From an uncultured Lachnospiraceae bacterium (GTDB taxonomy: Bacteria; Bacillota; Clostridia; Lachnospirales; Lachnospiraceae), in the NCBI GenBank assembly GCA_949948735.1, contig CATLGV010000007.1, positions 1-64,000 of the forward strand: DNA of 64,000 nt, given 5' to 3'. Positions 6,521 through 16,308 of the stretch are shown here, piece by piece. The position numbers were made by a program, and so were the translations under genes. A model generated the notes under the pieces. The model was not told where the DNA came from, did no database searches, and saw only the letters and a list, made by a program, of their open reading frames with translations. The first letter of the stretch is position 1; each line of letters begins with the position of its first letter.

Positions 6521-7495
6521 TCAATTCCCCGATTTTGCATATACGGCCTCAGACAGCGGCCGGAAGCAATAGCCCATTTCCTCCCATCTTGTCAGCAGCT
6601 CATCCAGGATTTCACCGTTTGTCTGCGATGTATTGTGCAGGAGGACAATTGCTCCCGGATGAATGCGCGAAGTAAGCTTATCGATTGCCTCCGCATGCCC
6701 CGGCTGATGCTCGGGGTCCCAATCCACGTAAGCAAGACTCCAAAAAACCGTGGTATATCCCAGCTCCTGCGCCATTCTGATATTCTCCGCATCGCTTTTT
6801 CCCTGCGGCGGACGATAATACGGCGAAAGCTTTGTGCCGGTAATTTCATAAAACAAATCTGCCACATCGTCCAGTTCTTTTTTAAACGCATCCCTGTCCG
6901 ATATTGCGGAGAGATCCGGATGATGATAAGTATGATTGCCTACCGCATGGCCCTCTTCTGCCATCCTCTTTACCAAGTCCGGCGCCGTTTCAAGAAAATG
7001 CCCCACCACAAAAAAGGCAGCCTCAGCGTTATGCTTTTCCAGCGCGTCCAGAATCGGCGCCGTGTTGCCGTTTTCATAACCACAGTCAAAGGTCAGATAA
7101 ATCACCTTCTCCGTATCTTCTCCCACATAATAAGCATCATACCATGCCAAATCCTCCGCGGACGCATTTCCTACAGGGCACGTGCCGGCCTCCCCAAAGG
7201 AAAGCCCCCATTCTTCCGAGGCAAAAGTCAGGGCCCAGCCCTCCGGCGGCTGCTTCTCCGAAGCAACGTGCGCCTCCAGCCGCGCACCGGCCCCTGCCGT
7301 CTCCAGATTTACGGTCTTCTTACCGATCGTCCCGGGCGCTCCGGCCTCCTGTAATGTTATCCCGCACATCCTGTCCGCCGCAGCCGATTCTCCTGTTCCT
7401 GTTTTGTCCTGTCCCGCGCTGCTATGCGCTGCGCCGCACCCGGCCAGCAAAAGCACCGCCGCCACAGCGCCTGCCATACGCCTTCCGTATCTCAT
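6521..7495 (-). CDS. PdaA-like polysaccharide deacetylase lipoprotein
   Basis: 324 residues. A lipoprotein signal peptide ends in LLLAGC, a linker follows, then a NodB-type carbohydrate esterase 4 domain. Motifs: TFDCGYENG (TFDNGYENG in B. subtilis PdaA), the metal-binding GNHTYHHPD, RPPQG and FWSLAYVDWD, and C-terminal HPGAIVLLHN. PdaA removes the acetyl group from muramic acid during muramic delta-lactam formation in spore cortex. The PdaA-specific GYENG and VDW motifs favour that subgroup over chitooligosaccharide deacetylases. The ATG at 7495 has GGAGG 5 bp upstream; an earlier ATG at 7507 lies on that binding site. The promoter region carries a tandem repeat operator. Confidence 0.85.
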   Translation of the reverse strand: MRYGRRMAGAVAAVLLLAGCGAAHSSAGQDKTGTGESAAADRMCGITLQEAGAPGTIGKKTVNLETAGAGARLEAHVASEKQPPEGWALTFASEEWGLSFGEAGTCPVGNASAEDLAWYDAYYVGEDTEKVIYLTFDCGYENGNTAPILDALEKHNAEAAFFVVGHFLETAPDLVKRMAEEGHAVGNHTYHHPDLSAISDRDAFKKELDDVADLFYEITGTKLSPYYRPPQGKSDAENIRMAQELGYTTVFWSLAYVDWDPEHQPGHAEAIDKLTSRIHPGAIVLLHNTSQTNGEILDELLTRWEEMGYCFRPLSEAVYAKSGN

Positions 7496-7580
7496 TATTT
7501 CCTCCATTTCTGCGCTGCTTTAATAATGCCCATGCTTTGCAGCGCGCAGATACAAACCCTTCTCCTGATGTACTGACGCT

Positions 7581-7825: not shown

Positions 7826-9397
7826 TTAGAAAATTCTTCTTACGGCAAGAACTTTTCTATAGGATGCGTTGGAAACGATAATTCCCGTCTTGCTGTTGCT
7901 TGCATGTACGATCTGTCCGTTTCCTACATATAACCCCACATGTCCGGAATAGCATACGATATCGCCCGGCTGCGCGTTCTCAAGTCCGCCGACATCGTAG
8001 CCCTGCGTTCTGAGTGCAGATGAAGAATGCGGGAGGCTCACGCCGAAATTCGCGTATACGCTCATAACAAAGCCGGAACAATCCGTACCGTTTGTCAGGC
8101 TGCTTCCACCGTATACATACGAATTGCCTACAAACTGTGTCGCGTAATTGATTACTGCCTTACCCATCTCGCTGCCCTCAGAGGACGCTGCCGTGCTCTG
8201 TGCCGCCGCAATGACAGCCTGCGTATTCGCCGACTTCTCCTGCGGTGTCGCTACGGTTCTTGAAGCTGCCGCAGATGCCGCTGCTCTCGCCTCCTGACGC
8301 GCCTTTGCCTCCTTGGCAAGTCGCGCTTCCTCTTCCTCTCTTGACTCTGCATGTACAAAGTCTGTTCTGAGGTTTACGAAATCTCTGGAAACGTAACCGT
8401 CTCCCTCCTCAATCGCTATCTTAACCCAGCCGTCAAGCTCCTCTAAAACAACGAGCTCTTCCTCTATCGGAACCAGCCCAAGCACTGATGCCTCCGTGCT
8501 GGCTTCCTGTCTGACCTTTAATGTCGTTGTATTGACAATCGCATATGTAGTGCCGACCTCTTTTGCAAGGTTCTCGGCTTCTTCCCCTACTGCGCAATAC
8601 TCACCCTTTACATATCCTGTACAGTTCCCGGAGGTAATCTTGTACCAGCCGTCCTCCTCTTCAACAAGCTCTCCGACAGATTTGTCATACAGCTTGCCGA
8701 CGATTTCGCCTTCCTCACTCGGGATGCTTCTGACATTCACATAATTATTTACCTGTGCAATGACAAGTCCTGAGAAATCCTGCTCCTCTTCGGATGAAGC
8801 CTCCTCGGTCTCCGTCTCTGTCTCGGTTCCCTCTTCCGTTGCGTCCTCGGTCTCCTCCTCGGATACCGCCTCCGTCTCTTCCCCGGTTACTGCTTCATCA
8901 ACGTCGTCATATACCTCTGTCGCAGAGAACCCTGCGCTCAGCTTCAAGTCCTCCTCATCGTCCGCTTCGCTCTCAGTCGCTTCAGTCTGCGGTGTGGACG
9001 CCGCTTCCTCCGAAGACGGCTCATTTGCCTCCGCCTCCGGTTCCTCCGTCGGGACGTCCGCTGCCTCCAAAAACGGCTGAAGTACATTCGGCGCCGTCAT
9101 CAACGTGCCGGGAACCGACTGTGCTGCCGACCATACGCCTAACTCAGATATGGCAGCTCTCTCCGATGCCTCGACGATGTTCGGCCGCACACCGGAAATG
9201 CTCTCCAAATAAGCAATATTCTCAACAACCTCTGTCTGTAAATCCTGTATGGTACTTCCCTCGTCCAGCGCAACCGCTATGCCTGCTACCGGAACGGAGG
9301 AATTCTTTATTCTTGCCTCAATTGTCAACTGGTATCCGGATAATGCCAGTGTACCCGCAAGCGCACATGCCACAATCCTCATTCCATACTTGTTCAT
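7826..9397 (-). CDS. secreted SH3-NlpC/P60 cell-wall hydrolase
   Basis: 523 residues. An N-terminal signal sequence precedes an acidic Glu/Thr/Ser-rich linker (about 115-210) and two bacterial SH3 domains (VRSIPSEEGEIVGKLYD and VRQEASTEASVLGL). A Lys/Ala-rich linker leads to a C-terminal NlpC/P60 domain with the catalytic Cys in TDCSGFV and His in GHVGLYV and IVHASN. It would cleave peptide cross-bridges in peptidoglycan outside the cell. GGAGG 8 bp before the ATG at 9397 sets the start; the upstream ATG at 9412 has none. It has its own promoter and a WalR-like site in the leader. Confidence 0.92.
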   Translation of the reverse strand: MNKYGMRIVACALAGTLALSGYQLTIEARIKNSSVPVAGIAVALDEGSTIQDLQTEVVENIAYLESISGVRPNIVEASERAAISELGVWSAAQSVPGTLMTAPNVLQPFLEAADVPTEEPEAEANEPSSEEAASTPQTEATESEADDEEDLKLSAGFSATEVYDDVDEAVTGEETEAVSEEETEDATEEGTETETETEEASSEEEQDFSGLVIAQVNNYVNVRSIPSEEGEIVGKLYDKSVGELVEEEDGWYKITSGNCTGYVKGEYCAVGEEAENLAKEVGTTYAIVNTTTLKVRQEASTEASVLGLVPIEEELVVLEELDGWVKIAIEEGDGYVSRDFVNLRTDFVHAESREEEEARLAKEAKARQEARAAASAAASRTVATPQEKSANTQAVIAAAQSTAASSEGSEMGKAVINYATQFVGNSYVYGGSSLTNGTDCSGFVMSVYANFGVSLPHSSSALRTQGYDVGGLENAQPGDIVCYSGHVGLYVGNGQIVHASNSKTGIIVSNASYRKVLAVRRIF

Positions 9398-9460
9398 TTG
9401 ATAATCCTCCAAGCGGTGTAAAAGAAATTTGTCATTAATATTTCGTTTTGAGTATTAATT

Positions 9461-9662: not shown

Positions 9663-10565
9663 CTACAGAAGCTTCTGTGCGGCGTTCACAGCGTTTGCCC
9701 CGTCCGCAACCGCCGTAATAATCTGGCGCATCGGCTTTTTACGGATATCGCCCGCGGCAAAAATCCCCGCCGCGGAGGTCGCGCAGCTCTCATCTGCGAG
9801 AATATATCCGTGATCGTCCATTTCCACAAGGCCCTGAAAACGCTGTGTATTGGGATTGATGCCTACGGCAATAAATATTCCGTTGACCTCAAGCGTACTT
9901 TCTTCTTTTCTTTCCTTATTATAAAGAGAAATGCGCTCCACCATATCCTCACCGGATATTTCCGTTACCTCGCTGTTCCAGATAATTTCCACATTTTCAT
10001 GGGCGGACAGGCGGTCCTGAAGGCTGGCCGCCGCGCGCAGCGCATCCCGCCGGTGAATGAGATATACCTTGCGGCAGATACCGGCAAGAAATATCGCATC
10101 TTCCACTGCGACGTCGCCGCCGCCTACCACTGCAACCGTACGTTTTCGGAAAAATGCGCCGTCACAGGTAGCACAGTAGGAAACCCCCATCCCCGCGAGC
10201 CGCTGTTCGCCCTCTACGCCAAGCATCGCGTGTGCCGCCCCCGTCGCAAGAATCAGCGTCCTTGCTTCATAGCGGCCGGCATCCGTATGCACAACCTTCG
10301 TATCCCCCTCCAGCGTCACCCCGGATACGTCCGCCGTAATAAACGGTACGCCAAGCGCTTCCGCATGCTCACGGAATTTTTCGGCAATATCGCTCCCGCT
10401 GATTTTGGAGAAGCCAAGATAATTATCGACCTCATAGGTTGTCAGTACCTGCCCCCCGCTCACGGGGCTTCTGTCGATGACTGCAAGCGCCATGCCGGCC
10501 CTGACGCCGTATATTGCCGCGCCAAGTCCTGCAGGTCCCGCGCCTAAAATTAATAAATCATACAT
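9663..10565 (-). CDS. trxB: thioredoxin reductase
   Basis: 300 residues, normal for the low-molecular-weight family. The FAD Rossmann motif GAGPAGLGAA is at about 8-17, the redox-active CATC at 131-134 in the NAD(P)H domain, a second nucleotide-binding motif VVGGGDVAVE follows, and GIFAAGDIR is near the C-terminus. It passes electrons from NAD(P)H to thioredoxin or a similar disulfide carrier. The ATG at 10565 follows GGAGG by 8 bp. It is the last gene of the Xre-PurM, SDR, trxB operon, 17 bp after the reductase stop. Confidence 0.9.
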   Translation of the reverse strand: MYDLLILGAGPAGLGAAIYGVRAGMALAVIDRSPVSGGQVLTTYEVDNYLGFSKISGSDIAEKFREHAEALGVPFITADVSGVTLEGDTKVVHTDAGRYEARTLILATGAAHAMLGVEGEQRLAGMGVSYCATCDGAFFRKRTVAVVGGGDVAVEDAIFLAGICRKVYLIHRRDALRAAASLQDRLSAHENVEIIWNSEVTEISGEDMVERISLYNKERKEESTLEVNGIFIAVGINPNTQRFQGLVEMDDHGYILADESCATSAAGIFAAGDIRKKPMRQIITAVADGANAVNAAQKLL

Positions 10566-10582
10566 ATCTGTTTCCTCCTTGT

Positions 10583-11314
10583 CTATATCCATCCGCCATC
10601 CAGCGTTATTACCTGTCCCGTCAGATAATCGTTTCCCACACAGAGCGCTTTTACCAGCGCCGCCACCTCCTCCGGTTTCCCCACACGGTCCGCCGGGATC
10701 TCCCGTACCAGCGCCGCCAGCTCTTCTCCGGAAAGAAAGCTGTTCATACCGGTATCAATAATCCCACAGGCAATCGCGTTGACCTGAATATTGCTCGGCC
10801 CAAGCTCCTTGGCAAGCGCACGGGTAAACGCATTCATGCCGCCCTTGGAAGCGGAATAGGCGACCTCCATGGATGCGCCGACCGTTCCCCAGACTGAGGA
10901 TATATTAATAATCTTTCCCTTTTTGCGCCGTACCATTCCCGGAACAGCCTCCCTGCATGTCAGAAAACAGGACGTAAGGTTGGTCGCAATCACCTCGTTC
11001 CACTCAGAATATGACATATCCGTCATAAGTCCGATATGGGAAATGCCCGCATTATTGACAAGCACATCCAAATACGGGATCTGTGCAAACATATCGATTA
11101 CTTTATCCTCCTCACATATTGAAAAAGAAAAGCATTGGCAGCGGACGCCGTAATCCTCCTCCAGCCGCCCGGCGAGCCGTTCAAGCGCTTCCGTATTTTT
11201 ATGGCAGGCAAGATAGAGGTCATACCTTTCCCTGGCAAGCTCCAGCGCGATTGCACTGCCAATCCCGCCTGTTGCGCCGGTTATCAACGCTTTTTTTTTC
11301 ACTGTTTCTTCCAT
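10583..11314 (-). CDS. short-chain dehydrogenase/reductase, FabG/YmfI-like
   Basis: 243 residues. TGATGGIG binds NAD(P), NNAG follows, and the catalytic Ser/Tyr/Lys set is seen as INISSVWG and YSASKGG. The C-terminus GQVITLDGGWI is FabG-like. The segment GIIDTGMNSFLSGEE...EIPADRVGKPEEVA resembles clostridial relatives of YmfI, which reduces the 5-aminopentanone modification of EF-P, more than fatty-acid FabG; this is from memory and not certain. The ATG at 11314 has GGGGGA upstream. It lies 23 bp after the Xre-PurM gene and 17 bp before trxB. Confidence 0.8.
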   Translation of the reverse strand: MEETVKKKALITGATGGIGSAIALELARERYDLYLACHKNTEALERLAGRLEEDYGVRCQCFSFSICEEDKVIDMFAQIPYLDVLVNNAGISHIGLMTDMSYSEWNEVIATNLTSCFLTCREAVPGMVRRKKGKIINISSVWGTVGASMEVAYSASKGGMNAFTRALAKELGPSNIQVNAIACGIIDTGMNSFLSGEELAALVREIPADRVGKPEEVAALVKALCVGNDYLTGQVITLDGGWI

Positions 11315-11337
11315 ATATAAGTGTCCCCCAATTCCTG

Positions 11338-12588
11338 TCACATCCAGTCTATTCTGTTGATAAACTGAATCTTCCGGCTGCCGCGCCGGATCCTCCCGAT
11401 TTGATAGCAGTCGTAAAACTGTGATACATGCTTTATTACAAAATCTTTATCCTGTTCCCGCACAATCAGGTTAAAGCCTGCGCCGCAGTTAAAAGTCCGC
11501 AGCATTTCTTCATCCCGGACGGCTCCGCTGCTGCGGATATATTTAAAGATGCGAAGCACCCGCAGCAGGGAAAGATCTATCTCCGCGGACAACCCGTCTG
11601 GGATTACCCTGCACAGGTTCCCCTCAATACCGCCGCCGGTTATATGCGCCATGCCCTGCAGGACGCCGCGGTCAAGCAGTCCCTTTATCGCCCTGTAATA
11701 CGGCGTATGCGGCTTCATAACCTGCTCGATGAAGGTCAGGCCGTCCAGCTTTTCCAGCTTAATCTGCGGCTGCTTATCCATCAGCAGGCGAACAAGGGAA
11801 TATCCGTTTGTATGCAGTCCGTTAGACGCAATCGCAAGCACCGCGTCCCCCTCACGGACAGATGATCCATCGATAATCCGGTCGCGCTGTACAATGCCGG
11901 CAATGCTTGAGGTGAGCACGTAAACGCCCGGCGCCACTACGGCAGGCTGTATGGAGGTCTCGCCGCCCACAAGCGAGCACTCGTTTTCCCGGCATGCATC
12001 CGCGATCCCCCTGACCAGCGTTTTGATGGTGTCCTTCTCCGCATTCCCGCACACAATAGTATCCAGCACCGCAAGCGGCCTTGCGCCCATGACAACAATG
12101 TCATTTACAAGGTGGTTGATCATATCGTGACAGATCGATTCCGTATAACCGTATTCCATTGCCAGCTTCTGCTTGGAACCGGGTTCTTCTGATTTTAATA
12201 CCAGCACCGGATTCTTGATTTCCGGAAAATGAATGTCATACAGTGAGGCAAACGGCCCTACTCCGTTCATCACCCGTTTATCCTCCGTCTCCAGATGCCG
12301 CGCCATTTCTTTCTTAATCGCATCCGTATAGGCAATATCAACCCCCGCCTTACTGTAGGAAAGCCCCTCCGTTTCCCGTTTACTGCCCGCAAGAATTTCG
12401 TCCACCGTCACATCGAGCGCAAGCGCCAGATCACAAAGGACTTCAATGTTGGGATAGGCCGTACCGTTCTCCCACTTTGATACTGCCTGAAACGACAGAT
12501 TTAATTTGTCCGCCAGCTGCTGCTGCGTCATTCCCATTGCCCTGCGCTTTTCCATGATAAAATTTCCGACCTTGATACTGTTGAGCAT
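11338..12588 (-). CDS. fusion of an Xre-type HTH regulator and a PurM-like AIR synthase
   Basis: 416 residues in one uninterrupted frame. Residues 6-65 form an Xre helix-turn-helix (MTQQQLADKLNLSFQAVSKWENG). Residues about 75-416 align end to end with PurM (phosphoribosylformylglycinamidine cyclo-ligase): GVGPFASLYDI, VNDIVVMGA (161-169), GGETS (208-212), HTNGYSLVR (259-267), TGGG (317-320) and FNCG. The PurM nucleotide motif DGVGTK is replaced by SEEPGSK (133-139), keeping the lysine but losing the aspartate. It may be an active cyclo-ligase, an autoregulated enzyme or a PurM fold recruited as a ligand sensor. CGGAGG lies 7 bp before the ATG. It is first in an operon with the SDR and trxB. 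Confidence 0.88.
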   Translation of the reverse strand: MLNSIKVGNFIMEKRRAMGMTQQQLADKLNLSFQAVSKWENGTAYPNIEVLCDLALALDVTVDEILAGSKRETEGLSYSKAGVDIAYTDAIKKEMARHLETEDKRVMNGVGPFASLYDIHFPEIKNPVLVLKSEEPGSKQKLAMEYGYTESICHDMINHLVNDIVVMGARPLAVLDTIVCGNAEKDTIKTLVRGIADACRENECSLVGGETSIQPAVVAPGVYVLTSSIAGIVQRDRIIDGSSVREGDAVLAIASNGLHTNGYSLVRLLMDKQPQIKLEKLDGLTFIEQVMKPHTPYYRAIKGLLDRGVLQGMAHITGGGIEGNLCRVIPDGLSAEIDLSLLRVLRIFKYIRSSGAVRDEEMLRTFNCGAGFNLIVREQDKDFVIKHVSQFYDCYQIGRIRRGSRKIQFINRIDWM

Positions 12589-12625
12589 CCCGATACCTCC
12601 GTTTTCTTTGTAAGTTTTCCGGTCT

Positions 12626-12696
12626 CCGGCCGATTTGCCGGAGCTCTGATCTTATCATAAGCGCAGTATCCGCATATCGGCAATAACCGGCCGATT
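12626..12696 (-). promoter_or_regulatory. promoter/operator region of the Xre-PurM operon
   Basis: The 10-mer CCGGCCGATT occurs twice (12626-12635 and 12687-12696). The second copy lies in a dyad ATCGGC/GCCGAT (12676-12681 and 12690-12695). On the minus strand a weak promoter, TTGCCG, 18 bp, TATGAT, overlaps them, and a CTCCGGC/GCCGGAG hairpin follows in the leader. These are candidate autoregulatory operators. Confidence 0.4.
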
Positions 12697-12767
12697 GAAG
12701 TTTCAGATCGGATTCAACCATGTGTAGAATATTCCGGCAGCCCGGATTATATCCTGCACCGCAAGGG

Positions 12768-13264: not shown

Positions 13265-15361
13265 CTATTGCTCCAACCAGAGAACCTCCTGCGGCCGCTC
13301 TCCGGTAAGCGCGGCGCTCCTCGCGTCGGGCTGGGAAAATCCGACAAAAAACCGGTATTGTCCCCCACCCGGGATCCGCTCTCCGTCCTCATTAACTACC
13401 GTAAGCGCCGAGCGCGGTATTTCCAGAAAGACCTCCTTTTCTTCCCCCGCCTTCAACGCTGTGCGTGTAAATGCACAGAGTGAAGGATGCGGCGTATCAA
13501 ACGCGGAAGCCTCCTTCTTTACATAAATCTGCAAAACATCCTCTGTAGCTGCGGCGCCCTCATTCTTTATTACCGCCGTTATCCCGCACGCGGCTTCCTG
13601 CGTCTCTCCGGCCGCACAGGCAGCCGCCCTTATAACACGGCACTTCCCGTAGGTCAGCCCATAGCCAAAGGGGTACTGCGCCTGCCGCTCCATGTAACGG
13701 TATGTCCTTCCCTTCATGCCGTAATCCGTAAAAGCCGGAAGCTCCTCCAGCGTTTCATAAAAGGTCACCGGAAGCTTGCCGGAGGGCGAGCATTCCCCAA
13801 AAAGCACCTCCGCTGCCGCTGCGCCGCCTTGTCCTCCCGGATACCACAGCTGCAGGATTGCAGAAAAATGCGCCGCCGCGTAGCTCAAATCCACGTCGCT
13901 CCCCGCCAGCATACAGAGCACCACCGGCGTATCCGTCTGTGCGAGCGTCTCCATCAACAGCCGCTGGGATTTTGGAAGCTGCAGATCCCGCTTGTCGCCG
14001 GATGCGTCGCTGTTGCCCTCGTCGCCTTCTTCTCCCTCCAGCGTCTCGTCCAAGCCCACGCACAGAATAACCACATCGCTGTTCTGCGCCACAATCCTTG
14101 CCTCCGTAAGCCGGTCCCGCTTCGTTTTTTCCCGAAACAGATCGCAGCCGGTCGAGGTCAATACCTGCACCTCGTCGCCAAGATACCGTATCAGTCCCTG
14201 CTGAATGGTCACATAATCCGATGCTGTTCCGTAATAGTTGCCAATCAATGCGGCGCGGCTGTCCGCATTCGGTCCGATGATTCCAAGCGTTTTTATTTTC
14301 TTCTTATCCAGAGGCAAAACACCATCATTCTTAAGCAGTACGAAGCTCTCTGCCGCCGCCTGCTTTGCCAGCGCCAGATGCTGTCTGCACTCCACCTTAT
14401 CATATGAAATCTTATCAAACTCGCTGCCGTCAAACAGGCCCAGCAGAAAGCGCGTCGTATATAGCCGCACCGCCGCCTCGGTGATCGCCTCCTCTGTAAC
14501 AAGCCCGTCCTCATACGCGCCCAGCAGATGCAGATAGGTGACGCCGCAGTTCAAATCACAACCTGCGTTCATCGCCATTGCCGCGGACTCACGAAAGGTT
14601 GCCGTCACCTTATGATGCTCGTGGAAATCGCGCAGCGCCCAGCAATCCGAAACAAAGTGCCCTTCAAAGCCCCATCTTCCGCGAAGTATATCCTGAATCA
14701 GGGTCCTGCTGCCGCAGCAGGGCTCGCCGTTTGTGCGGTTATACGCTCCCATCACAGCCTCCACGCCGGCTTCCTTTACCAGCGCCTCAAATGCCGGAAG
14801 ATAGGTCTCTTCCATATCTTTTCGGGAGGCCTCCGCGTCAAACTCATGGCGCAGCGCCTCAGGCCCCGAGTGCACTGCAAAATGCTTGGCGCATGCCGCA
14901 GCCTTCATGGTCTCCCCATCTCCCTGCAGGCCCTTTACATAGGCCACGCCCAAACGGCTTGTCAGGTAAGGATCTTCTCCATAGGTCTCGTGTCCCCGTC
15001 CCCATCGCGGATCACGGAAGATATTGATATTCGGTGCCCAAAAGGTAAGTCCCTTGTAGATGCCGCGGTCATCCAGAGCCGCATAAGCATTATATTTTGC
15101 CCGTCCCTCCGTCGCTACGGCATCCGCAATTTCCGATATCAGCTTCGTATCAAATGTCGCGGCCATTCCGATTGCCTGCGGAAATACGGTTGCCTGCCCC
15201 GCTCTGGCCACACCGTGCAGCGCCTCGTTCCACCAGTTATATGCCGGAATTCCCAGCCGCTTGATCGCCGGCGCCTGATAACTGAGCTGACCGGCCCGCT
15301 CCTCCAGCGTCATTTTCTCCACCAGCGCTCTCGCCTTCTCCCGTGCCGCTTTTCTGTCCAT
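13265..15361 (-). CDS. glycoside hydrolase family 3, beta-xylosidase/beta-glucosidase type
   Basis: 698 residues with no signal peptide, so cytoplasmic. Family 3 N-terminal TIM-like barrel: YNWWNEALHGV, FWAPNINIFRDPRWGRGHETYGEDP and the nucleophile region FVSDCWALRDF. A C-terminal alpha/beta sandwich has the likely acid/base in LDETLEGEEGDEG, and a fibronectin-III-like domain ends the protein. The NWWNEALHG and EGEEGD motifs are typical of the bacterial and plant xylosidase/arabinosidase branch, so xylo-oligosaccharides are plausible; the exact specificity cannot be read. The start at 15361 has AAGGAAG 9 bp upstream. It is preceded by the DpnI-like gene (56 bp) and followed by GNAT. Confidence 0.92.
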   Translation of the reverse strand: MDRKAAREKARALVEKMTLEERAGQLSYQAPAIKRLGIPAYNWWNEALHGVARAGQATVFPQAIGMAATFDTKLISEIADAVATEGRAKYNAYAALDDRGIYKGLTFWAPNINIFRDPRWGRGHETYGEDPYLTSRLGVAYVKGLQGDGETMKAAACAKHFAVHSGPEALRHEFDAEASRKDMEETYLPAFEALVKEAGVEAVMGAYNRTNGEPCCGSRTLIQDILRGRWGFEGHFVSDCWALRDFHEHHKVTATFRESAAMAMNAGCDLNCGVTYLHLLGAYEDGLVTEEAITEAAVRLYTTRFLLGLFDGSEFDKISYDKVECRQHLALAKQAAAESFVLLKNDGVLPLDKKKIKTLGIIGPNADSRAALIGNYYGTASDYVTIQQGLIRYLGDEVQVLTSTGCDLFREKTKRDRLTEARIVAQNSDVVILCVGLDETLEGEEGDEGNSDASGDKRDLQLPKSQRLLMETLAQTDTPVVLCMLAGSDVDLSYAAAHFSAILQLWYPGGQGGAAAAEVLFGECSPSGKLPVTFYETLEELPAFTDYGMKGRTYRYMERQAQYPFGYGLTYGKCRVIRAAACAAGETQEAACGITAVIKNEGAAATEDVLQIYVKKEASAFDTPHPSLCAFTRTALKAGEEKEVFLEIPRSALTVVNEDGERIPGGGQYRFFVGFSQPDARSAALTGERPQEVLWLEQ

Positions 15362-15417
15362 AGAAGTGTTCTTCCTTTCATTCGTTTTTCTAAAGTATAG
15401 CACAGTTACCGGATCCG

Positions 15418-16185
15418 TCAAAACCGTTTTTTATAATGCCCTCCGCCTAAAAACTCAATAAACCCCTTATCTCTCAGAAATTGCAATTGCTGCCGGATCT
15501 TTGCCTCCACATTATGATTATTTATATGCCTTTTCTGCAGGATTTCAGTATACGCATATACCTCCTGCAGGCAGAATTCATTGCTTCCTATACGATTGAC
15601 ACAGTTGAGCACGTCAAACAGCCATGAGCGCACATTCATATTCGCTGTTTCAAGCTTTTTTATTCTGGCATAATTCTCTACCACTTCTCTTTGGGACTTC
15701 ATTATTCCATTCTTTATAACGCTTATTTTTCCCTGCTGCGGGATTTCGGCATATAAAATATTACATCCCGTCCATCCTGCCCGCCGCGCTGTGGGCGCAA
15801 GCGGTTTTCTTTTTTCTATTATCTGCGGGACAAAGAAAAATTTGGGAACCAGAATCAGATCTGTTACCGTATAGTCAGCGGAATATTGCATGACAAACAG
15901 CTCAGGATTTGTGGCGCTTGTGATCCGTTCGATCATGGTCGCATACGCGCCGTCATTAATCTTCTTTCCCACACGGCCCTCTTTGCTTTTCAACTCAAAT
16001 ATCCCGCCGCAATGATCACATTTCATATCCGCAACTGGCTCGTTATTTTTCAGCTCAAATATATGCGGATTCCCGCAGCAAGGGCAGAACATATTGCCCC
16101 CGACCCAGCTTTCACTCATCACTCTTATTTTTTGCGCCTTACTCCTATACCCTTTCCCAAGTGCCGCATTCATTTGTAAATCCAT
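15418..16185 (-). CDS. DpnI-type methylation-dependent restriction endonuclease
   Basis: 255 residues, against 254 recalled for DpnI, and collinear with it over the full length. Matching blocks include a zinc site of two CxxC pairs (C34/C37 and C56/C59), catalytic PD-(D/E)xK-type D53, E64 and K66 (VADMKCDHCGGIFELKSK), NDGAYATM, RKPLAPTARRAGWTGCNI, and the C-terminal winged helix that reads methyl-GATC (IRQQLQFLRDKGFIEFLGGG). DpnI cleaves Gm6ATC. The ATG at 16185 was chosen because it matches the DpnI N-terminus exactly; a GTG at 16245 is possible. No dpnD-like gene or methylase is adjacent, and base composition is more AT-rich than the GH3 gene beside it, suggesting transfer. Confidence 0.92.
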   Translation of the reverse strand: MDLQMNAALGKGYRSKAQKIRVMSESWVGGNMFCPCCGNPHIFELKNNEPVADMKCDHCGGIFELKSKEGRVGKKINDGAYATMIERITSATNPELFVMQYSADYTVTDLILVPKFFFVPQIIEKRKPLAPTARRAGWTGCNILYAEIPQQGKISVIKNGIMKSQREVVENYARIKKLETANMNVRSWLFDVLNCVNRIGSNEFCLQEVYAYTEILQKRHINNHNVEAKIRQQLQFLRDKGFIEFLGGGHYKKRF

Positions 16186-16308
16186 CAAAAATCCCATCCA
16201 TTCCCGCTCTAATATCCGTTTTACCGCAGAAGCCTTATGCAGCACAATCGCTGCTCTCCGTGCTGATAATATCCTATTATATCATAAACCGCCCGCATTT
16301 TCATAATA

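Follow-up and report, generated by a model that had tools for sequence, protein, structure and literature searches.

A helix-turn-helix protein built on an AIR synthetase fold: a candidate self-controlled regulator of gut Clostridia

The window, by which we mean the whole 64,000-nucleotide stretch of DNA that was analysed, comes from contig CATLGV010000007.1 of an uncultured Lachnospiraceae bacterium and includes a gene whose product joins an Xre/Cro-C1 helix-turn-helix (HTH) to a domain of the PurM family, the 5-aminoimidazole ribonucleotide (AIR) synthetases of purine biosynthesis. This HTH-PurM fusion is probably a one-component transcription regulator that controls its own gene and senses through a purine-biosynthesis enzyme put to a new use, its DNA binding, ligand and activity being predicted. 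Support comes from sequence comparison, namely the architecture of the protein, the lineage of its PurM domain, the loss of particular residues, the conservation of the promoter, and the status of the fusion as an extra PurM copy. An earlier note on this DNA, made from the letters alone, had proposed that a regulator on a purine-enzyme fold controls its own operon, and the comparative evidence that such a protein would control its own promoter is strong. The note also knew of no characterised protein of this design, and no published HTH-AIR synthetase protein was found in the open-access literature, few subscription papers being covered.

Both halves of the fusion are readily recognized. The HTH matches PF01381 and the PurM part clears the curated equivalog cutoff of TIGR00878 (Table 1), as expected of the Xre-PurM fusion first described, and a sequence search of the PDB with the window protein returned PurM, PurM superfamily and HTH proteins. 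The folds listed in a structural comparison were those of PurM and its superfamily alone; the HTH was not run as a separate model. The search for other fusions that the earlier note had called for yielded 81 loci (the window plus the best 80 of 327 relatives from a scan of genome contigs) and a second family, discussed below as type 2. Fusions of this kind occur in gut Clostridia, a cultured host being Blautia parvula NBRC 113351 (L187), and most of the genomes compared are draft metagenome-assembled genomes. The HTH-PurM open reading frame is intact in 79 of the 80 nearest relatives, the remaining one (L184) having a damaged HTH. Between the window gene and its two nearest relatives, nonsynonymous divergence (dN) is 0.04-0.08 and synonymous divergence (dS) 0.70-1.19, with dN/dS below 0.1 in both domains. 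Given this intactness and the purifying selection on both domains, the fusion is no frame artefact. Family models name HTH-PurM fusions purM, which could mislead pathway reconstruction.

A conserved element in front of the fusion gene points to regulation. In the window, an upstream palindrome (site A) is followed at a distance of 25 bp by a shorter site (site B, GGTTATTG) that overlaps the -35 box of a sigma-70-like promoter. Written as a pattern (TCAACC-N3-GGTTGA, 25-26 bp, GGTTATTG, 20-24 bp, then TATnAT or a close form), the element lies upstream of 74 of the 81 fusion genes and in 3 of 1588 random windows used as a control; the two sites are 25 bp apart in 69 of these genes and 26 bp apart in the other 5. 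A fixed pattern, allowed up to 2 mismatches, was also searched for in 19 genomes, where it matched the fusion promoter in 18, the nineteenth (G723) having the 26-bp spacing. Only three other matches arose at this level: a perfect copy ahead of what remains of a truncated fusion gene (L221 1501-1710, G717:C97), near an AbiE-type-like pair named by eye; a match to the reverse strand at a true site; and one further place. The exact palindrome alone occurs in 9 of the 19 genomes, each of which has it at the fusion, with a single further copy elsewhere. None of 10 standalone or phage genes of the same PurM lineage (see below) has the element before it, nor does the canonical purM of the window's own genome. 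The interval from 12,626 to 12,696, which the earlier note had put forward as the DNA to test, does hold the promoter core, and site A falls just outside it. A dimer of the HTH would bind this element, with site A near -74 and site B over -35; because site B overlaps the -35 box, repression is slightly favoured over activation.

The element accompanies the HTH, irrespective of the domain behind it. Type 2 is a second, diverged HTH-PurM family with an eroded active site, represented in the window's genome by L002 (G000:C17:39656-40858, minus strand), which is 29% identical to the window fusion. The neighbours of L002 are an aspartokinase gene (Pfam) and AraC-like and ATP-binding cassette (ABC) transporter genes (by clustering with Pfam-named relatives), and in the five type-2 loci whose flanks were mapped further out, L111-L115, a gene for an ABC half-transporter follows the fusion (Pfam on L111 and L113). 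In the window's genus, 3 of 38 genomes have the window's kind of fusion (type 1) and 16 have type 2, and the analysis of type 2 took in 15 of those 16 copies. Where the type-2 helix reads SYQAVSKWE, the type-1 element precedes the gene in 4 of 4 cases (control 7/4000), and where it reads S[YF]QAVSRWEQG, a different arrangement, TTGAGT-N14-CAAT-N5/6-TTGATTG, precedes it in 11 of 11 (control 5/4000). A weak, three-mismatch form of the element also stands before an HTH-methyltransferase gene (L239 1501-2448, G719:C90; PF03848, PF13649) whose helix, SFQAVSKWENG, is that of the window fusion. The element is common to genes that place three different C-terminal parts behind related HTHs, and no other evidence speaks as strongly for its being read by the HTH itself. 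In a further protein of the window's genome an Xre HTH precedes an orotate-phosphoribosyltransferase-like domain (L004 1492-2289, region G000:C2:39306; PF00156; TIGR00336 104.8 against a cutoff of 106.8), and the joining of Xre domains to nucleotide-synthesis enzymes may therefore be more widespread here.

The PurM domain itself belongs to a distinct lineage. In alignment, the canonical DGVGTK motif pairs with EEPGSK of the window protein; the earlier note had seen this substitution correctly, and it did not hold up as a change private to one protein. When 60 canonical PurM proteins, 12 fusions, 4 standalone relatives and 15 type-2 proteins were aligned, K132, E134, E135, P136, S138, Q140, N158, H159, S212, Q214, T260 and H294 proved common to 14-16 of the 16 fused and standalone sequences, unlike canonical PurM, and a separate 26-sequence alignment agrees on these signature residues. 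Because they are common to fused and standalone members, SEEPGSK is not decay of one protein; judged by these alignments, it is a fixed mark of a PurM lineage in its own right, which has standalone members too. The change specific to the fusions is another, I213. In a tree made by a quick method with SH-aLRT support, the 21 fusions included form one clade (99), fusions, standalone and phage members group together (94), type 2 comes next (89), and canonical PurM stands apart. The supports of 94 and 89 fall under the tool's 95 mark, and the very long branch of type 2 makes its position uncertain. A match of the EEPGSK type that exceeds the canonical level turned up in 11 of 299 family genomes besides the window's own (G000); the HTH survives at least partly in eight of them and is gone in G168, and the genes of G213 and G319 are standalone.

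Within this lineage, the fused clade is marked by residue loss. A screen for positions with 95% conservation or more across 60 canonical PurM proteins, with the residue class kept by at least 80% of 9 standalone or phage proteins and by fewer than 20% of 84 fusions, yields exactly two columns, E144 and E257 (numbered on the canonical PurM of the window's genome, L003), which are I213 and G323 in the window protein. Three broken copies (L103, L105 and L108, all GGETSIQP like the fusions) and the standalone L110, which has a long insert and reads GGETSEQP, are not in the count. The K25 column, in the same numbering, is mixed, with Lys in 5 of 9 standalone proteins and 2 of 84 fusions. The phage protein closest to the fused clade, L198, has already lost the second glutamate and still has the first. 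Four canonical invariants are changed in the window protein (L003 numbering: D65 to E, E144 to I, D155 to V and E257 to G), most other polar ones being retained. Every one of the 84 fusions keeps K139, D155, N162, D163, D176, E210, H259, N261, H315, N324, R327 and N367 (window-protein numbering), of which N261 and H315 would correspond, by residue offset, to the N186 and H239 positions that were changed by mutation in structures of PurM from Pyrococcus abyssi, according to the entry titles.

The earlier note had asked whether the genome has a separate purM, and would have dropped its reading if the fusion, fully active and with no DNA binding, were the only one. Such a copy was found: in this genome, 84% complete, a purE-purM-purD run (neighbours named by eye, purD by model) encodes a canonical PurM whose DGVGTK is unaltered, and this makes the fusion unneeded as a pathway enzyme, though it may contribute. 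The same holds widely. Another PurM was found in 68 of 69 fusion genomes (21, broken copies included, plus 48), canonical in 53 and of a long type in 15, and none was found in G1157. TIGR00878 recognized 11 of the long-type proteins and a long-type query 4 more, one of which is incomplete and lies at the end of its contig; five fusion genomes had at first seemed to be without another PurM, and a long-type PurM was recovered in four. This long type (about 390 aa) stands in for canonical PurM in some fusion-bearing Clostridia (L294, L295, L296).

Standalone EEPGSK genes occur in G213, G319, G417, G390, G771, G812 and G934, and on three viral contigs. Canonical PurM is also present in G213 and G319. 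The genomes G417, G771, G812 and G934 (91-96% complete) carry purD, and neither TIGR00878 nor the long-type query found any PurM in them other than the standalone genes (L109, L285, L286, L287); the other proteins of the superfamily identified there are PurL-, SelD- or HypE/ThiL-like (G417:C40 by eye). G390, 73% complete and with purD not seen, was left out of this count. In G771 a run of purE, purB-like (292 bits, cutoff 326), purF, purN, purC and purD has no purM between purF and purN; pur gene names in L282-L291 were assigned by eye, except for purD and nine proteins. Since standalone members are the sole PurM found in four purD-bearing genomes, the standalone EEPGSK lineage is probably a working, alternative AIR synthetase. 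It is also carried by phages, on viral contigs of 83, 195 and 104 kb (L196, L197 and L198), and the two viral proteins tested both match the phage family 'phosphoribosylaminoimidazole synthetase'. Cyanophage purM is reportedly discussed in the literature as an auxiliary metabolic gene. On one of the viral contigs (L197), a NAD synthetase-family gene adjoins the PurM gene.

A plausible course of events would begin with an alternative AIR synthetase of the EEPGSK lineage, which gained an HTH together with its operator. The fused PurM, having lost a key acid and presumably its normal turnover, would have turned into a self-controlled switch, one residue change marking the step from enzyme to switch. 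The former active site of its PurM domain may take up ATP, a purine intermediate or both, with formylglycinamidine ribonucleotide (FGAM) as the first candidate, and the ligand state would alter DNA binding. The targets would be the fusion's own gene and whatever is co-transcribed with it.

The alternative that survives best, though we regard it as unlikely, is a second functional AIR synthetase under its own repression: the HTH would set the level of an enzyme whose PurM domain still makes AIR. BirA is a model for such a bifunctional enzyme-repressor. This idea draws strength from the standalone kin that are the sole PurM found in their purD-bearing genomes, from the twelve residues (K139 to N367) retained in all 84 fusions, and from the TIGR00878 score; it must contend with the loss in the fusions of a glutamate found in 69 of 69 non-fused sequences, and with the other PurM that 68 of the 69 fusion genomes already own.

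Several observations do weigh against a regulator that has given up catalysis and reads its own promoter. Catalytic activity may persist, since the purM equivalog cutoff is passed and most polar invariants are kept, and DNA binding, ligand and loss of activity are argued from comparison. Residue loss and fusion sit on one branch of the tree, so the link between them is a single event, the counts being of sequences. On the side of the promoter, the element patterns were composed after the sequences had been seen, and 7 of the 81 loci (L147, L176, L178, L184, L191, L193 and L195) are without the element at pattern stringency. A stricter type-2 pattern that required a -10 box matched 1 of 11 genes, the looser one 11 of 11, and the covariation of helix and operator in type 2 amounts to one split. 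The element is absent at five other HTH genes of the window's genome (L004-L008), and an HTH gene, that of L239, lies behind only 1 of 11 three-mismatch places inspected. Finally, 3 mismatches gave 44 further matches in the 19 genomes against 20 with the reversed pattern, and in view of this excess some weak sites elsewhere may be real.

That excess is one reason to consider that another regulator binds the element and HTH-PurM acts elsewhere, as are the predicted status of HTH-PurM binding and a position of the element that would equally suit an activator. Yet the element at up to 2 mismatches is nearly confined to fusion promoters, HTH-less relatives are without it, and the second fusion family and the HTH-methyltransferase share it in very different neighbourhoods; we therefore hold this alternative to be improbable. 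Least probable of all, and already disfavoured, is a decaying or accidental fusion with no regulatory role: the HTH is lost in L105 and damaged in L184, and internal deletions occur in L103, L105 and L108, so that the breakage in close relatives that the earlier note had named as a danger is true of a few copies (L105, L184), but 79 of the 80 nearest relatives are intact, dN/dS is below 0.1 and the promoter is conserved. An origin on a mobile element was considered separately and rejected. A tblastn search gave 365 plasmid and 217 phage records, with every best place below 60% identity, and among the 15 matches listed for each of the two groups none spanned both the HTH and the PurM domain.

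Table 1. The fusion gene, its product, its promoter and the genes behind it, in positions of the window
Feature	Positions	Strand	Basis or remark
HTH-PurM fusion gene	11338..12588	-	416 aa; coordinates include stop codon
Xre/Cro-C1 HTH, aa 11-65, helix SFQAVSKWENG	12394..12558	-	PF01381, E 5.3e-16
PurM (AIR synthetase-like) domain, aa 77-401	11386..12360	-	TIGR00878, 269.6 bits, cutoff 236.35
Signature KSEEPGSKQ, aa 132-140, replacing canonical GTDGVGTKL	12169..12195	-	Alignments
Codon of I213 (E144 column)	11950..11952	-	Glu in 60/60 canonical and 9/9 standalone/phage; of 84 fusions, Ile in 83, Val in 1
Codon of G323 (E257 column)	11620..11622	-	Glu/Asp in 60/60 canonical and 8/9 standalone/phage; Gly in 83/84 fusions
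Upstream site A, TCTACACATGGTTGA; consensus TCAACC-N3-GGTTGA	12714..12728	-	Conserved upstream
Site B, GGTTATTG; lies 25 bp from site A and overlaps the -35	12681..12688	-	Conserved upstream
Sigma-70-like promoter, TTGCCG-N18-TATGAT	12654..12683	-	Position conserved
Ribosome-binding site, ACGGAGG	12596..12602	-	Role assigned by eye
Short-chain dehydrogenase/reductase (SDR), elongation factor P (EF-P) 5-aminopentanone reductase (YmfI) family	10583..11314	-	NF047420, 265.3 bits, cutoff 238; ATG by eye
Thioredoxin-disulfide reductase, last gene in run	9663..10565	-	TIGR01292, 353.8 bits, cutoff 343.45; ATG by eye

In the window the fusion, the SDR and the thioredoxin reductase follow one another on one strand with gaps of about 20 bp. 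The starts of the latter two were picked by eye; the mechanical open reading frames start further upstream and overlap. With spacing this tight, the controlled genes in the window should include the YmfI-like SDR and the thioredoxin reductase, if these are co-transcribed with the fusion. The gene run that the earlier note read as an operon is confirmed in the window and does not extend to a general design: an SDR directly follows the fusion in 3 of the 81 loci (the window, L116 in G031 and L117 in G019), all of the window's genus, and since the operon is found in just these three, the tie to EF-P and thiol redox is lineage-specific. A conserved operon partner was sought in all 81 loci, and each neighbour class recurs in a small part of them at most. 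Genes resembling rplM/rpsI (by eye) lie a few kb from the fusion in 14 loci, a nitroreductase-family gene is immediately upstream in 6 (Pfam run on one), and a Ham1-family gene, for a non-canonical purine nucleoside triphosphate pyrophosphatase, is near or beside the fusion in 4 (L144 7045-7662, L124, L134 and L141; Pfam on L144). Because downstream neighbours differ among loci, targets besides the fusion's own gene would vary by lineage. At L100 (7358-9005), phosphorylase-superfamily and streptomycin adenylyltransferase-family genes adjoin the fusion, with similar clustered neighbours in L105. The wider surroundings in the window, all on the minus strand, comprise a polysaccharide deacetylase (6521-7507), an SH3/NlpC-P60 hydrolase (7826-9412) and a GH3 glycosidase (13265-15421), and beyond them lies a gene for a DpnI (Dam-replacing family) restriction endonuclease (15418-16245, minus strand).

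A broader picture can be offered tentatively, at somewhat short of even chances. These proteins may form a new regulator family in which an AIR synthetase sensor traded catalysis for sensing of FGAM/ATP. One branch would autoregulate and capture downstream genes, here those for EF-P modification and thioredoxin reductase, and a second, more eroded branch would have been redeployed before ABC transporters; the HTH and its operator would be a movable module attached to further enzymes as well. The parent lineage would be an alternative AIR synthetase, taking the place of canonical PurM in some Firmicutes and borne by phages too. If true, another purine-pathway enzyme has been made into a DNA-binding switch, besides PurR of Firmicutes, and an intermediate deep in purine synthesis would be a possible signal. 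With the standalone enzyme as the likely ancestor, type 1 as the switch and type 2 as a later derivative, all three stages can be compared.

Set beside known systems, the fusion differs from PurM/AIR synthetase itself (TIGR00878; 1cli, 5vk4) in its EEPGSK motif, lost glutamate or glutamates, N-terminal HTH and extra-copy status. It is like the HTH-PyrE-like protein L004 and the HTH-methyltransferase L239 in having the HTH first and an enzyme domain second, but those two have other enzyme folds, and L004 is without the element and L239 has a weak form of it. With Xre autoregulators (RstR/DicA-type, the nearest NCBIfam HTH models) it shares a Cro/C1 HTH and inverted half-sites at its own promoter, and unlike any that turned up in the open-access literature it has an AIR synthetase domain. 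The nearest parallel in principle is Bacillus PurR, a DNA-binding domain with a non-catalytic purine-metabolism enzyme domain that senses PRPP (phosphoribosyl pyrophosphate) and ppGpp (PMC8789054); the fusion would likewise pair a DNA-binding domain with a proposed sensor derived from a purine enzyme. The effector domain of PurR is a phosphoribosyltransferase, and PurR binds at pur genes, whereas the window protein has a PurM domain in that place, an Xre HTH, and its own promoter as the place of the strong sites found.

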